From positions 372,001 through 436,000 of the forward strand of contig NZ_CP022423.1 in the NCBI RefSeq assembly GCF_002222655.1: DNA of 64,000 bases, in the 5' to 3' direction. Below are positions 7,175 through 64,000 of the stretch, piece after piece; positions within the stretch are counted from its first letter, which is position 1, and the number at the start of each line of letters is the position of its first letter. This stretch comes from Vitreoscilla filiformis. Its GTDB lineage: Bacteria; Pseudomonadota; Gammaproteobacteria; Burkholderiales; Burkholderiaceae_C. The notes under the pieces were generated by a model. The model saw only the letters and a program-made list of their open reading frames with translations. It was not told where the DNA came from and searched no databases. The translations under genes were made by a program, and so were the position numbers.

Positions 7175-8599
7175 TCAGCGCTCTTGGATCACCAGCACAT
7201 CGCTGGCACCGAAGGCCGCATGGCCGCTGCCTTGGCCATCGCTGGCCTCCACCACCAGGGTGCGCGCATTGCCAGCGGTGGCTTTGGCCGTGGGGAACGT
7301 CTGTGAGAAATTCATGCCCTTGCCAATTTCTTTCTTCGTCGGCGAGACGATGGCCAAGATGTGGCTGGTGCCCGCAGGCCCCGCCGCCCGCACTCGCCAA
7401 GAGGAGCGCGGCAGTTTGATGGTGCCGGCGGCAATGCGGTTGTCCTCATCGATTTGGTTGGGGAACAGCAGGTCGAATGTTTTGCCATCGCTGCCCACAT
7501 GCAACACATACAGGTAGCCTGGCCGGTTGGTGGTGACGCTGAAATCCAAGAAGTCCTTGCCAATCGCCAGCGACGTGTTGCCCTTGATCGACACTTTGTA
7601 AGACGATGAGCCCGCCGCCCGCAAGTCTCGCAGGGTGCTGACGGGGTCAACGTCCTGCTGTGCGGCAGCGGAGTTGCCGCCCGTGGTGGCGCCACTGGCC
7701 TCCGCCACGCTGGGGAAAATCACCGGCAGTTTGGGGTTGCCCTGCAAAGTCACCGTTTGCGCCCGCCCCCCTCGGCGGTTGATGTAACTCTGCGCACATT
7801 GCCGCAGCTCCTCGCCATTGATGCTGCCGCTGCGGTCGGTGTCGGCCTGCGAGCCCAAGCAGGACGACCACGCCAACGTCGCCACGCTGCCCTCGTTCGT
7901 GGCACCCGCGACCTCGGTGGCCGAGGCGGCTGCCACGTAAAGCACACGGGGCGCATCTTGCTTGGCACCAATCACCTCCAGATTGCGCCCCATTTTGTTG
8001 ACGGCGTTGCCACAGCGGTAGTTGTCGCTGATGCCGGCGCCGACTTTGTCGGTGTCAGGAAAGTATTTGGGCACGCTGTCCGTGCTGCGCAACGCTTTGG
8101 TGGCGGCACCGCCGGAGAAACAGGAGTCGTTCATGAACACCACTTGCCCGGCCTTGGTGGCCAAGCGGTTGAGCTGCTCCTCCATCAAGCTGTCTTCGTA
8201 CAGCATGGGATCGCGGGTGATCAGCCCCTCGGTGCAACGCGCACCGCCTCGGCCTTCAATCTGCCCACCGTGGCCCGAGTAGTAGAGGAACACGTTGTCC
8301 CCCGGTGCAATGCGCCCCGCCAACTGCGAGAACTCGGTGCTGACGTTGCTCTTGGTCAGCGTGGCATTGCTGATTTCGCGGATGTTGGCATCCGGTACCC
8401 CCATGGTGCGGGCGATTTTGCGCGCCATGGCCGCATCCAGATCAATGCCGGGCAAATTGGCGCGTGGGTTGCCGTAATCGCCGATCCACATGATCAAAGC
8501 GTGGTTGGCGGCATGAACCGTCCCTCCCACACCCAGACACGCACCAGCGAACACCGCAGCGGCCAGGGGCCGCAACGCAAAAGAACGGGAAGGAATCAT
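7175..8599 (-). CDS. exported caspase-fold (C14, metacaspase-like) peptidase with EF-hand-like loop and DUF4384
   Basis: 474 residues from ATG 8599. Residues 1-30 form a signal peptide (AAAVFAGACLGVGGTVHA). The caspase p20-like domain follows: LPGIDLDAAMARKIA, the catalytic His in LYYSGHGG (His110) and the catalytic Cys in NDSCFSGG (Cys160). At 253-264 there is a 12-residue EF-hand-type calcium loop, DTDRSGSINGEE, with acidic or hydroxyl ligands at positions 1, 3, 5, 7, 9 and 12. Residues about 320-470 match the DUF4384 beta domain often fused to bacterial caspases (PGYLYVLHVGSDGKTFDLLFP). Prokaryotic metacaspase relatives cleave after Arg/Lys. It is the first gene of a two-gene unit with the serpin. 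Its physiological target is unknown. Confidence 0.9.
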   Translation of the reverse strand: MIPSRSFALRPLAAAVFAGACLGVGGTVHAANHALIMWIGDYGNPRANLPGIDLDAAMARKIARTMGVPDANIREISNATLTKSNVSTEFSQLAGRIAPGDNVFLYYSGHGGQIEGRGGARCTEGLITRDPMLYEDSLMEEQLNRLATKAGQVVFMNDSCFSGGAATKALRSTDSVPKYFPDTDKVGAGISDNYRCGNAVNKMGRNLEVIGAKQDAPRVLYVAAASATEVAGATNEGSVATLAWSSCLGSQADTDRSGSINGEELRQCAQSYINRRGGRAQTVTLQGNPKLPVIFPSVAEASGATTGGNSAAAQQDVDPVSTLRDLRAAGSSSYKVSIKGNTSLAIGKDFLDFSVTTNRPGYLYVLHVGSDGKTFDLLFPNQIDEDNRIAAGTIKLPRSSWRVRAAGPAGTSHILAIVSPTKKEIGKGMNFSQTFPTAKATAGNARTLVVEASDGQGSGHAAFGASDVLVIQER

Positions 8600-29979: not shown

Positions 29980-31420
29980 ATGACCCGACCCGACTGCGCC
30001 GCCCCCCCGTTCAGCGACTGGCAAGGCACCCACCTGTTGGTGGTGGACGATGAGCCCGGCATGGTCAGCTTCCTGCAACGCGCCATGAGTGACCGGGGGG
30101 CGCGGGTGGACACCGCCGGCAGCGTCGAACAAGCGGTGCCGCTGGCCGCGCAGCGCCACCACGACCTGATCTTGCTGGACATCGCCCTGCCGGGCCGCTC
30201 CGGCATCGAGTGGCTGCACGAGCTGCGCGAGCAAGGCCACACCGGCGAAGTCATCCTCATGACCGCCTATGCCGACTTGGACACCGCCATCGACGCCCTG
30301 CGCGCCGGCGCCTCCGATTTCCTGCTCAAACCGTTCTCGCTCGCCCAAGTGCTGAACGCGGTGCAGCGTTGCTTGGACCGCTCACGCTTGCTGCGCGAAA
30401 ACTACCTGCTGCGCCGCCAAGTGCCGGGGCTGGCGGCGGAGGCGGTGGGTTACGTCGGTGAATCGGCGGCGATCCAGCAGTTGCAAACGCTGCTGCGCCG
30501 CATCGCGCCCTTGCCTTCGACGGTGCTGCTGTTGGGCGAGTCTGGCACCGGCAAGGAACTGGCCGCCCGCGCCCTGCACCGCCTCAGCCCACGCGGGCGC
30601 GGGCCGTTTGTAGGTCGGGCACCTCCATGTGATAGCAAAGGGCCTCAGCCCACGCGGGCGCGGGCCGTTTGTGCCGCTGAACTGCGCCGCCATCGCCCCC
30701 GAGTTGATCGAAAGCGAACTGTTCGGCCATGTGCGCGGCGCGTACACCGGCGCCACCAGCGCCCGCGAAGGGCTGTTTCTCTACGCCCGTGGCGGCACGC
30801 TGTTTTTGGACGAAATCGCCGAAATGCCGCTGGCCCTGCAAGCGCGGCTGCTGCGCGTACTGGAAGAACGCCGCATTCGCCCGGTGGGCAGCGAGCAGGA
30901 GCAGGAAGTCGATGTGCGCGTGGTGGCGGCCACCAACCGTTCGCTGGAAGAAGAAGTGGCCGCCGGGCGCTTCCGGCCCGATCTGTACCACCGGCTGCGC
31001 GTGGTGGAGTGCCGCCTGCCGCCACTGCGCGAACGCCCGGAAGACGTGCCGATGTTGATTCACCACTATGTGCGCGAGCTGGCGCAGCAACTGGGTTTGC
31101 CGCCCATCGAGATCAACACCGCCTGCCTGCACCGCTTGCAAGCCTACGACTGGCCCGGCAACGTGCGTGAGCTGAAAAACCTGGTGGAGCGCTCGCTCAT
31201 CATGGGCTACCTCTGCCACGACGGTTGCGCCACCACCATGCCCCCTGCCGCCCCCACTCCGCCCAGCAGCGACACCCACGAACCTCTCGACCAAGTGGAA
31301 AAGCGCCATTGCCTGCATGTGCTGGGCGTGTGCGGGGGCAACAAGTCGGAGGCGGCGCGCCGCTTGGGCATTTCGCGCAAAACGCTGGAGCGCAAGTGCC
31401 TGGCCTGGGGCGTGCAGTGA
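29980..31420 (+). pseudogene. sigma-54-dependent response regulator, disrupted by a 61-bp insertion
   Basis: From ATG 29980: receiver domain (LLVVDDEPGMVSFLQ, phosphorylated Asp in LILLDIALPGRSG, Lys in LLKPFSLAQV), then the AAA+ domain with Walker A GESGTGKELAAR. At 30612 the frame is broken by the insertion at 30581-30672. The rest continues in the next frame with the sigma-54 contact loop ESELFGHVRGAYTGA, Walker [25 protein letters not shown], and a Fis-type helix-turn-helix ending KSEAARRLGISRKTLERK. Removing 61 bp gives an intact protein of about 459 residues reading RLSPRGRGPFVPLNCAAI. A GTG at 30629 could start the distal part, but that product would lack Walker A and so is unlikely to be active. 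Confidence 0.88.
30581..30672. repeat. 31-bp direct repeats flanking 30 bp of foreign sequence (61-bp insertion)
   Basis: A 31-bp segment (30581-30611, beginning GCCTCAGCCCACGCGGG and ending GGGCCGTTTGT) is repeated exactly at 30642-30672, with AGGTCGGGCACCTCCATGTG then ATAGCAAAGG between (30612-30641). Net gain is 61 bp, which shifts the frame of the response regulator. Deleting one copy plus the middle restores a canonical NtrC-family sequence. 61 bp equals the repeat-plus-spacer period of the CRISPR array at 63645-64000. Confidence 0.9.
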
Positions 31421-53927: not shown

Positions 53928-56668
53928 ATGGACTTTTTCAAGCACTGGGGCAAAGCCCGGCCAGTGGCCGAAGCGGCCACGTCCCATCATTTGCTCGTTT
54001 ATCACAGCTTGGATGTCGCCGCTGTTGGAGCCGCTTGGCTGGAGCGTTCGGCGCATCTGTTGCATTGGATGGCCCAAACCGCCGGTCTGCCCGCCCCGGC
54101 CTTGCTGGATTGGCTGACGTTTTGGCTCGCGCTGCACGACATCGGCAAATTCGCCACGCCGTTTCAGGCTCAGCGGCCTGATTTGGTGCAGACGCTGCAA
54201 GGCCGCAGCGTGGCGGCACCCGCGCTGGGCGCACCGCGCCATGACAGCCTGGGTTTGTCGGCCTGGCAAAAGTGGCTGGCGCCGCTCGCTGTGCAAGAGC
54301 GCTGGTGGGGGGAAGCCGCCGCCGATCACGACATGGCGCCTTGGGCCCATGCCGTCACCGGGCACCACGGCCAGCCCGGCAGGCCCGATCTGGCAACGGT
54401 CACACGCTACTTCAGCACCGCCGATCAAACCAGCTTGATCGCGTTCGCCCAAGCCATGCGCCATTTGTTCATCACGCCGAGCGTCATGGCCGCTGTGTGC
54501 GCCACTGAGCCTGAGGATTTTGAAGTGCGCAGCCAGCGCTTGTCCTGGTGGGTCGCGGGCGTGGCGGTGCTGGCGGATTGGATTGGCTCCAACACCGAGT
54601 TTTTCCCTTACGAAGCCCAGCCGGACACGTCACTCGCCCGCTACTGGCAGCAGGCGTGTGCCCGAGCGCACCGGGCGCTGGACCAAACCGGCGTGCTGCC
54701 CGCTGCGTGCCCCCAAGAACAGCCTTGGGCACGGTTGTTTCCGCACATCCACCAACCGTCAGCGCTGCAAGCTTGGGCACAACACACAGCACTGAGCCAG
54801 GGCCCGCAATTGCACCTTTTGGAAGACGTGACCGGTGCGGGCAAAACCGAAGCAGCGGTGATGCTGGCCCATCGCTTGATGGCCAACGGCAGCGCCGACG
54901 GCTACTTCATCGGCCTGCCAACGATGGCCACGGCCAACGCGATGTACCAACGCTTGGTCGATGTTCACGTGCGTTTATTTGCCAGCGACGCCAGCCTGAC
55001 GCTGGCCCATGGACGCAAAGATCTGGTGGAAATGTTCGCCGCCTCGGTATTGCGTGCCGGCAAAGCTGAGGCCGACCCGGCCCAGCAAGACGACAGCGCC
55101 ACCACCCGTTGCACCCGCTGGCTGGCCGACCACAACAAACGGGCACTGCTCGCACCGGCGGGCGTGGGCACGGTCGATCAGGCACTGCTGGCGGTGTTGC
55201 AGAACAAGCATCAATCGCTGCGGTTGCTCGGTTTGTTCCGCAAGGTGTTGATCGTGGATGAGGTTCACGCCTGCGATGCCTACATGCAACGCACGTTGGA
55301 GGTACTGCTGCGCTGCCATGCGGCCAGTGGGGGCAGTGCCATCCTGCTATCGGCCACCTTGCCGCAGGGGATGAAACAGCGCTTGTTCGATGCGTATGCC
55401 CAGGGCTGTGGTGCCCAACGGCCTGCATTGATCGAACGGGCTTATCCGCTCATCACATCGTGGCCAGGGGCACCGGGCGCGGTTTCATCCAACCGCTGCG
55501 AGGAAGTGGCCGTGCCCACGCGCAGCGCGATGTGCGCCGCACTGTGCAGGTTCGTTACACCGCCGATCTTGACGCGGTGCTGGCCCACATCACCGAAGCG
55601 CTTGCGCAGGGGCAGTGCGTGGGCTGGATTCGCAACACCATCGGCGACGCGCTGGCGGCCCAGGCTTTGCTGTGTGAGCGGGTGGCACCGGAGGGCATCA
55701 CGCTGTTTCATGCCCGTTTCACGCTGGGGGATCGGCTGGACATCGAAACCGAGGTGCTGGCGCACTTGGGCGCTCGCAGTGGCCCGACACAACGACGTGG
55801 CCGGTTGCTGATTGCTACCCAGGTGGCCGAGCAATCGCTGGATGTGGATTTGGATGTGCTGGTGAGTGACCTGGCCCCCATCGATCGGCTGATTCAACGC
55901 GCCGGGCGGCTGTGCCGGCATGTGCGAAATCAGGCAGGCGAGCGGTTGCCGCTGGGTGCCGTCGATGGCCGAGGGGCACCGCAGTTGTGGGTGTACGGGC
56001 CGGCCTGGGCGCCGCAACCAGGGGCGGACTGGTTCCGCCAAACATTCAAGAAAGCGGCCTACGTTTATGACGATCACGCCCAGCTCTGGCTGAGTGCGCA
56101 GCAGTTGCAGGCGGGCCGGTTCACCATGCCGGAGGATGCGCGCCCCATGATGGAAGCGGTGTATGGCGATGTGGACATCCCGCCCGGCCTGGAAAAAAGC
56201 CATCTAAAGGCGCTGGGCAAGGGTTATGGCAGCCGCTCCAACGCGCAGGACAACACCATCAAGCTGGATGAAGGTTACGTGCGTTCCGGGCTGGAATGGT
56301 TGGCCGACACCTCGGCCCCCTCGCGTCTGGGAGAAGACACCGTGGATGTGGTGCTGGGCCGTTGGGTGAACGGGCAGGTGCAGCCGTGGCGGGCCGACAA
56401 GGCCGCACACGCCTGGGCCTATAGCACGCTGCGGGTGCCCCGGCGCCTGATCGACCAGGCGGTGCCACCCGCCACGCCCGAACAGGCCCACGCCGTTGAA
56501 GCTGCATTGGCGAGCATGCCCGGCGGCGGGCGCTGGGTGGTGTTGCTGGTGCTGGCCATGGTGAATGGGCAGTGGCAAGGTCAAGCGTTAAGCCAAGCCA
56601 AGGAGCGCCGCCCCGCCGAGTGTCGAACGTGGGTGTATGACGGGCGACGGGGGTTGGTCACAGGGTGA
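53928..56668 (+). pseudogene. cas3: CRISPR-associated helicase-nuclease Cas3 (type I-E), frameshifted
   Basis: Begins at ATG 53928. The HD nuclease domain has LALHDIGKFATPFQ, AADHDMAP and VTGHHGQPGRPD; the helicase has Walker A DVTGAGKTEAAV, IVDEVHACDAYM (DEVH box) and LLSATLPQGM. After ERAYPLITSW the reading frame must shift by one base: downstream DVRRTVQVRYTADLDAVLA and motif VI APIDRLIQRAGRLCRH are read in another frame. The change lies at about 55505-55535 and equals loss of one base, likely a C in CGCCAG. Restored, the protein would be about 913 residues. As written, it would stop at 55811 with the second RecA lobe lost, so interference would be disabled. Sequencing error cannot be excluded. 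Confidence 0.9.
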
Positions 56669-56673
56669 ATTTT

Positions 56674-56692
56674 GGTGTTGATAATCCACACC
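56674..56692. promoter_or_regulatory. inverted repeat over the probable -10 element of hicA
   Basis: GGTGT-TGATAATCC-ACACC, a 5-bp perfect dyad with 9-bp spacing that encloses GATAAT (56680-56685), immediately before the hicA ATG at 56693. A start here would give a nearly leaderless transcript. It is a candidate operator for HicB autoregulation. Confidence 0.5.
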
Positions 56693-56878
56693 ATGAACAG
56701 CAAACAGGTCATCAAACGACTGGAGGCGGATGGTTGGTATCTGGCTCGTGTGAAGGGTTCACATCACCAGTTCAAGCATCCGAACAAACCCGGGTTAGTC
56801 ACGGTCAAACACCCGGACGGAGACATCCCCACCCCGACCCTCTACAGCATTGAACGGCAAGCCGGTTGGCGAAAGTGA
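56693..56878 (+). CDS. hicA: HicA mRNA-interferase toxin
   Basis: 61 residues (MNSKQVIKRLEADGWYLARV). HicA fold: KQVIKRLEADGWYLARVKGSHHQF with the catalytic His in GSHHQF, followed by PNKPGLVTVKHPDGDIP and TPTLYSIERQAGW. Length fits HicA (about 60). HicA cleaves mRNA when freed from HicB. It lies inside the cas gene cluster, 24 bp after cas3 and 11 bp before hicB. Confidence 0.9.
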   Translation: MNSKQVIKRLEADGWYLARVKGSHHQFKHPNKPGLVTVKHPDGDIPTPTLYSIERQAGWRK

Positions 56879-56889
56879 AAGGACACCCC

Positions 56890-57285
56890 ATGAAATTCAC
56901 CGTGGTTTTGCACACCGATGACGGTCAGCATTACGGCGTCATCGTCCCGGATTTGCCGGGGTGTTTTTCGGGCGGCCATGGCATTGACGACGCTCTTGCG
57001 AGTGTTCAAGAGGCCATTGACCTGCACGTTGAAACACTGCTCGACGATGGCGTAGACATTCCGCCACGCCAACCCATCACCGTCCACCAAGCCAATCCCG
57101 ACTACGCCGGGGGGGTGTGGGCGGTGGTGGACGTACCGATCGAGAAGTACTTGGGGCCTGCCGAAAAAGTCAACATCACCATTCCGCGCCGTTTGCTGGC
57201 ACGCATTGACGAATACGCCCGGGCGCATGGTGCCACCCGCAGCGGTTTTCTGGCAGAAGCTGCACGGCAAGCCATGCGCGGTTAA
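56890..57285 (+). CDS. hicB: HicB antitoxin with RHH DNA-binding tail
   Basis: 131 residues. The N-terminal half is the HicB RNase-H-like fold (MKFTVVLHTDDGQHYGVIVPD, FSGGHGIDDALASVQEAID). The C-terminal half is a ribbon-helix-helix domain (EKVNITIPRRLLARIDEYAR), which in this family represses the operon. It is 31 bp before casA, with no terminator between, so the pair is probably co-transcribed with the Cascade genes. Confidence 0.9.
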   Translation: MKFTVVLHTDDGQHYGVIVPDLPGCFSGGHGIDDALASVQEAIDLHVETLLDDGVDIPPRQPITVHQANPDYAGGVWAVVDVPIEKYLGPAEKVNITIPRRLLARIDEYARAHGATRSGFLAEAARQAMRG

Positions 57286-57316
57286 ACTGAAGAACAAACG
57301 ACAAGGGAGCCCCCCC

Positions 57317-62346: not shown

Positions 62347-62350
<4 letters not shown>
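61628..62350 (+). CDS. casE: crRNA endonuclease Cas6e (CasE)
   Basis: 240 residues from ATG 61628. It has the two ferredoxin-like domains of Cas6e; His29 in GDHQWLWRLFP lies where the family catalytic His is expected, and the Gly-rich loop near the C-terminus is HGLGSAKAFGCGLMLV. It cuts the pre-crRNA in the repeat and stays on the 3' hairpin. The CRISPR repeat has a matching palindromic core. It overlaps cas1 by 4 bp. Confidence 0.93.
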
Positions 62351-63550
<1,200 letters not shown>

Positions 63551-63644: not shown

Positions 63645-64000
63645 GTGTTCCCCACGGGGGTGGGGATGAACCGAATCGTCAGGGGGTAGCACGCCCCGAG
63701 GTCTGGTGTTCCCCACGGGGGTGGGGATGAACCGAATCGTCAGGGGGTAGCACGCCCCGAGGTCTGGTGTTCCCCACGGGGGTGGGGATGAACCTTCGAT
63801 TCTGGAATTCAATTTCGGCGGCTATTTGTGTTCCCCACGGGGGTGGGGATGAACCGCGCCGTGCCGAACTGCGGCGCCGCCGCGTGCCGTGTTCCCCACG
63901 GGGGTGGGGATGAACCGAAGGGCGTGCTCACCTCGTCCGGCCCGCCGGAGTGTTCCCCACGGGGGTGGGGATGAACCGCATCCGGTCATGTACCGGTGGG
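63645..64000 (+). CRISPR. type I-E CRISPR array (six repeats, runs off the window)
   Basis: Six repeats of 29 bp start at 63645, 63706, 63767, 63828, 63889 and 63950, each opening GTGTTCCCCACGGGGG and ending GGGGATGAACC plus a 29th base. That base is G in all but repeat 3, where it is T. Spacers are 32 bp, period 61. Spacers 1 and 2 (63674-63705 and 63735-63766) are identical. Spacer 6 is cut by the window edge after 22 bp. Repeats lie in the same direction as the cas operon, leader next to cas2. Core palindrome CCCCACGGGGGTGGGG can form the Cas6e hairpin. Confidence 0.98.

Follow-up and report, generated by a model that had tools for sequence, protein, structure and literature searches.

We propose that a 61-bp insertion in the gene of an NtrC-type regulator of Vitreoscilla filiformis (event E1) arose through off-target spacer integration by Cas1-Cas2, most likely by the type I-E pair, and we give this reading a probability of about 0.94. 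The gene is located in the window, i.e. the whole stretch of 64,000 nucleotides that was analysed (contig NZ_CP022423.1, positions 372,001 to 436,000). Ectopic spacer integration had already been put forward by a sequence-only reading of this stretch, and it is supported by the distant source of the insert, by the sizes involved, by the resident cas1e and cas2e genes and by further events in the same genome. The features are collected in Table 1.

Table 1. Position and description of insertion E1, of the I-E adaptation locus in the window and of four further insertions (C1, contig of the window; plain numbers, window positions)
Feature	Position	Strand	Description
NtrC-type regulator gene, interrupted	29980..31420	+	Receiver, sigma-54 interaction and Fis-type HTH parts; frameshifted by 61 bp
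E1, target copy 1	30581..30611	+	31 bp maximal, the 28-bp duplication contained within
E1, prespacer (33 bp), G-first placement	30610..30642	+	Source match 30610-30644, 35/35
E1, unambiguous insert (30 bp)	30612..30641	+	Identical to a stretch of tniQ in the resident Tn402-type transposon
E1, target copy 2	30642..30672	+	Exact repeat of the first copy
cas1e	62347..63270	+	TIGR03638, 369.8 bits, profile 2-268 of 269; start assigned by reading
cas2e	63251..63550	+	TIGR01873, 112.8 bits, profile 1-87 of 87
I-E array, leader end	63645..64000	+	Repeat 28, spacer 33; unbroken array extends past the window to about C1:442813
E2	C1:10687		27-bp duplication, middle 33, spacing 60; in an open frame without Pfam match
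E3	C1:148163		28-bp duplication, middle 33, spacing 61; BPD_transp_2 permease split within the domain (Pfam)
E4	C1:779310		30-bp duplication, middle 31, spacing 61; PF09820 protein split within the domain (Pfam)
E5	C1:1404982		37-bp duplication, middle 36, spacing 73; PPK2 kinase split within the domain (Pfam)

Structure of insertion E1

The 31-bp duplication around 30 bp of unrelated DNA, as described by the sequence-only reading, is exact, with a spacing of 61 between its copies. In random sequence of the same composition (2.634 Mb, 181 spacings), the expected number of exact gapped repeats at least 27 bp long is only about 2e-7. As read, the frame that begins at 29980 runs into a stop at codon 397, and joining of the flanks restores a single frame of 459 codons. 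Pfam matches to Sigma54_activat cover 2-53 for the left piece of the regulator and 46-166 for the right piece. These pieces are one Sigma54_activat domain cut in two, the overlap reflecting the duplicated stretch. When ten loci of relatives (some of them possibly paralogues) were compared by blastn, nine gave a match, and all nine align through the E1 site, none of them with the 61 extra bases. Because these nine aligned relatives are without the insertion, E1 is taken to be derived.

Source of the E1 insert

Besides the E1 site, the 30-mer of the insert is found at three places in the genome, each in a separate copy of a Tn402-type transposon (L121 1784-12313, L120 and L123). Contig C1 carries two of these copies, and the 40-kb contig C3 carries the third. 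The transposon is 10.53 kb long (10530 positions) and has 28-bp terminal repeats; its tni genes match modules in plasmid records that are named tniA, tniQ, tniB and tniR, and the source of the insert is found inside tniQ (Pfam TniQ). There are no mismatches between the copies, which differ by indels only (between 5 and 12 gap openings). When the genome was queried with the complete element and 40 of the 97 first-look candidates were scored, 11 matches were obtained, namely the three full copies, the 35-bp piece at E1, a diverged 95-bp match on C3 (74%) and six cross-matches between terminal repeats. The cargo reads as a TetR-like regulator with ABC and outer-membrane efflux parts (labels by reading and from the names in plasmid records).

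The E1 match corresponds to element positions 7687-7721, far from the element ends. It admits a 33-bp prespacer together with a 28-bp duplication in three placements, leaving room for both the 28-bp repeat window and the 33-bp spacer that had been suggested for this site. The placement given in Table 1 begins with G, and those at 30611-30643 and 30612-30644 fit the sequence equally well. Since the insert is a contiguous copy of distant mobile-element DNA, it did not arise by the local slippage that had been weighed against integration; as an origin of the inserts in general, slippage is ruled out by the four of them that copy distant DNA. An exact scan of viral sequences with the E1 insert gave no matches, and the 35-mer had no megablast match in plasmids, though parts of the transposon have matches in at least 5000 plasmid records.

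Four further events in the genome

A total of 130 loci, among them the window, were scanned for exact direct repeats (18 bp or longer, spacing 20-200), known CRISPR repeats and short-period sequence being excluded. These loci amount to 2.634 Mb, of which about 12 kb overlap, and cover 69% of the genome. Five gapped duplications of at least 27 bp with an unrelated middle stood out, i.e. E1 and four more (E2-E5), so that other insertions of CRISPR period, which the sequence-only reading had considered worth searching for, do exist in the genome. The spacings of all five equal periods of resident arrays (61 for I-E, 60 for I-F and 69-74 for I-C). If spacings were spread evenly over 30-130, five such agreements would have a chance of about 4e-5, which is a rough figure obtained after the fact. 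By reading, the other entries are tRNA genes, a CRISPR array (L277), the palindrome of a repeated element and repeats in coding or intergenic DNA. The surroundings of two short repeats, one of 18 bp (spacing 120) and one of 21 bp (spacing 123), are 45-46% alike, a level that fits diverged repeats. When the criteria were relaxed to 25 identical positions of 28 (spacing 30-130), the search returned the same five and no further event with mismatched copies, the remainder being tandem, tRNA-like, intergenic or other repeated elements. As no event with mismatched copies turned up, the events look recent.

All five events are located inside genes. In four of them, one Pfam domain is split into adjoining left and right parts, and in E2 a stop is gained, the 60 bp keeping the frame and introducing a stop codon; the E2 site is present in single copy in three relatives that align on both sides.

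Four of the five inserts have a copy elsewhere in the genome, three of them in the 2.6 Mb scanned and the fourth (E4) outside it, on contig C2. The E3 insert has an exact 33-bp copy at C1:1237420, where neither flank extends the match, and its duplication is exactly 28 bp; from the translation, we take the gene holding this source to encode an electron-transfer flavoprotein dehydrogenase. In E1 and E4, the repeats contain a 28-bp duplication with an ambiguity of 3 and 2 bp, respectively; for E4, an exact 33-bp match at C2:59048-59080 resolves the duplication to 28 bp. The E5 insert is matched exactly over 37 bp at C1:1391775, 13 kb from the E5 site, and its total of 73 can be divided as 36+37 or 37+36; the I-C repeat is 36 bp long. 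In E2, the duplication is one base short of 28. For this insert there was no source in the genome within three mismatches, no exact match in viral contigs and no phage or plasmid match over 80% of the insert length.

Resident CRISPR systems

The genome contains five Cas1 matches. The I-E cas1 and cas2 genes that ectopic integration calls for are present, each aligning with almost the whole of its family model (Table 1), and cas1e likely encodes the integrase of E1. The adjacent I-E array comprises 118 consecutive repeats, the last with two changes, and a stray repeat copy is found 955 bp further on. The net gain of 61 bp at E1 had been equated with the period of this array, and the period is indeed 61 in 113 of its 117 units (62 in the other 4). 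When counted after 28 repeat bases, 114 of the 117 spacers begin with G.

A type I-F locus is located on contig C2, the second replicon, with periods of 60 in 116 of 128 intervals and 61 in 10 of 128, and Cas1f and Cas3f are encoded in the genome. The type I-C locus has cas genes and periods of 69-74, 73 occurring in 4 of 53. The remaining two Cas1 matches lie near arrays of period 65-70.

Targets and PAM sequences

The sequence-only reading had pointed to a match between the E1 target and the core of the CRISPR repeat at 12 of 15 bases. This match is real and has a P of about 8.5e-5 in one fixed register, but both core and register were picked after the fact. Over the full I-E repeat, E1 alone shows 12 of 28 matches, a score expected by chance in 28% of cases when the best of six placements is taken. 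The claimed likeness is therefore modest for E1 alone, and it becomes significant when E1-E4 are taken together. In the orientation with the insert G-first, the four targets have 49 matches to the I-E repeat vs. 32.8 expected (P 0.0005 against random genomic sites, P 0.006 against shuffled I-E repeats), in a test designed after the sites had been seen. In the opposite orientation there are 43 matches (P 0.019); with the repeat moved by two positions the count is 50, and with three positions it is 47. From these counts, the E1-E4 targets are repeat-like, with the register right only to within a few bases. The E5 target shows no likeness to the I-C repeat in register (12 matches, P 0.56); the two have a common 8-base word out of register (P 0.06). 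A neo-CRISPR array at E1 was considered and rejected, there being a single insert and a target that is only 12/28 like the repeat.

An AAG-type PAM, which had been expected beside the E1 protospacer, was not found. In the G-first placement the sources have CAG (E1), GAG (E3) and GCG or ACG (E4) in its place. In naive adaptation AAG is a preference and no strict requirement. The I-C PAM is TTC, and E5 shows none.

Proposed mechanism and alternative explanations

According to the proposed mechanism, a 33-bp prespacer cut from tniQ of the resident transposon would have been loaded onto Cas1-Cas2, most probably onto the type I-E pair, whose genes lie 32 kb from E1. Not the first CRISPR repeat but a repeat-like stretch in the regulator gene would then have been attacked, on both strands and 28 bp apart. 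Subsequent gap filling would duplicate these 28 bp and leave the spacer between the two copies. Events of this kind would have taken place at least four more times in the genome, with E5 (36- or 37-bp duplication, total 73) fitting the I-C adaptation module. For E1, E3, E4 and E5, integration by Cas1-Cas2 accounts for the sizes with no additional assumption, and for E2 it does so if the duplication may lack one base. Against it speak the missing AAG PAM, the 27-bp duplication of E2 and the unlikeness of the E5 target to the I-C repeat. The exact duplications, their sizes, the genomic copies of four inserts and the broken frames are observed directly, whereas the enzyme, the sequence of steps and the lack of anything that maintains the insertions are what we infer.

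Among the alternatives, the I-F Cas1-Cas2/3 complex of the second replicon fares best as the maker of E1 or E2, its array having periods of both 60 and 61, its Cas1f and Cas3f proteins being encoded in the genome, and E2 having a spacing of 60. However, inserts of 33 bp with duplications of 28 bp are the norm for I-E and the exception for I-F, the E1-E4 targets are unlike the I-F repeat (24 matches vs. 30.0 expected, P 0.94), and CC, which is the I-F PAM, does not precede the E1 insert in any placement (by reading). We consider this origin improbable on the whole; for E2 specifically, it is possible.

Still less probable is end joining at a staggered double-strand break, in which overhangs of about 28 nt would be filled in and a stray fragment captured between the ends. 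Such joining also yields a duplication around captured distant DNA, which agrees with the genomic copies of four of the five inserts. It predicts, however, neither that the totals (60, 61, 61, 61 and 73) would equal resident array periods, nor that exact 33-bp source matches would be combined with 28-bp duplications in E3 and E4. Moreover, the other repeats at spacings of 20-200 read as tRNA genes, CRISPR and coding or intergenic repeat families.

An assembly or sequencing artefact is very unlikely: small indel errors probably do occur in this assembly, as the transposon copies differ by indels alone and cas3 is split, but such errors would not be expected to place some 60 bp of correctly sized distant DNA, with CRISPR-specific sizes, at five sites. 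Finally, a footprint of Tn402-type transposition (for example insertion followed by excision) is hardly credible, for although the E1 insert derives from a Tn402-type element, the piece is internal (7687-7721 of 10530) and without either 28-bp terminal repeat, elements of this type duplicate 5 bp, and the inserts of E3-E5 come from other sources, with none found for E2.

Own DNA in inserts and in array spacers

Copies of the genome's own DNA were compared between the inserts and the 296 unique spacers of the I-E (116), I-F (127) and I-C (53) arrays only. In the scanned 2.6 Mb, a good match outside arrays was found for one of the 296 spacers (31 bases of 33), and one further spacer had a weak match (22 of 24 bases). 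In the same DNA, three of the five inserts have copies, so that the fractions are 3/5 vs. 1/296 (Fisher P 9e-6). The self-matching spacer belongs to the I-E array, and its match at C1:2709947-2709977 (L174 9947-9977) covers 31 bases, or 32 of 33 when left ungapped, next to TGG. A natural reading would be that self spacers are lost from arrays by autoimmunity and that ectopic copies are harmless as guides. Not being expressed as guides, ectopic insertions would retain prespacers that would be eliminated from arrays through autoimmunity, and in this way they would escape selection against self spacers. The choice between self and non-self during adaptation is hard to measure in nature precisely because selection is expected to remove self spacers from arrays.

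Relation to known cases

Off-target spacer integration is already known as a kind. Nivala, Shipman and Church are said to have described it in 2018 (Nat Microbiol 3:310-318), with prespacers placed off-target by Cas1-Cas2 and a repeat-like site duplicated, and they reportedly also noted natural cases in Yersinia pestis and Sulfolobus islandicus. The present case shares both features. That work differs in its use of overexpression, whereas here several native, gene-interrupting events are present in one genome, four of the inserts have a genomic copy and one event (E5) fits a second CRISPR type. PMC11788318 refers to Nivala et al. 2018 when it mentions integration outside arrays on overexpression of Cas1-Cas2. 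Ectopic acquisition in Streptococcus thermophilus, as it appears in excerpts of PMC7999890 and PMC8047081, likewise takes place away from the leader-repeat junction; the target there is a true repeat inside the array, whereas here it is a host gene. According to PMC13034035, the minimal Cas1 of type V-C frequently integrates off-target. That enzyme also integrates outside the CRISPR locus, but it represents another type and an integrase without Cas2. Papers that pair neo-CRISPR with spacer integration were not found in one open-access literature collection. Judged from that one collection, it looks new that a single genome carries several native events that break genes, with a source identified for four of them and with two CRISPR types involved.

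On balance, we lean towards the view that, in this lineage, natural CRISPR adaptation acts as an insertional mutagen. Recent knock-outs of several unrelated genes would be due to at least two modules (I-E and I-C), and the insertions would represent an unselected record of Cas1-Cas2 captures, mostly of own DNA. The spacer-writing enzymes appear to act as a natural source of mutation, using snippets that come mostly from their own genome, and the ectopic insertions point to a cost of CRISPR immunity, namely that ordinary genes are knocked out. Any finished genome can be searched for exact gapped duplications whose spacing equals the resident CRISPR period. Owing to the simplicity of this test, it would be possible to measure across public genomes how often native Cas1-Cas2 integrates in this way, which sources it favours and which targets it prefers.

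Further observations on the CRISPR loci

Protospacers of the I-E array were sought with 85 of its 116 unique spacers in 299 genomes of the family, two candidates per genome being scored in the rows used. At best, five places are usable, and no single PAM emerges from them. AAG followed by G stands beside two of them (3 mismatches each), TGG beside one (1 mismatch, own chromosome), AAG beside one (only 23 of 33 bases matched, own chromosome) and GCG beside one (4 mismatches); two rows with 8 and 9 mismatches are left out of this tally. When the whole I-E array was used as query, two weak phage matches were obtained together with 28 plasmid records that read as other CRISPR arrays, and exact viral scans with parts of array spacers gave no matches.

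The I-E cas3 gene (53928-56668) is split over two frames as read, and the Cas3 model is matched in two pieces (6-509 and 548-733). The split may represent a real break or an assembly indel, the latter being conceivable given the indels between transposon copies. If the break is real, adaptation would continue without I-E interference. A small gene pair resembling HicA/HicB (by reading) is located between cas3 and the next cas gene (56690-57290). At the leader end of the I-E array, the two leader-proximal spacers are identical (63645-63794), i.e. the newest unit was duplicated or acquired twice. Another array with a 37-bp repeat (L126 6611-6886) contains a spacer whose first 24 or more bases are the same in three successive units. 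The further array at L277 (13504-14800) has 20 copies of a 37-bp repeat that is the reverse complement of the type found at L125.
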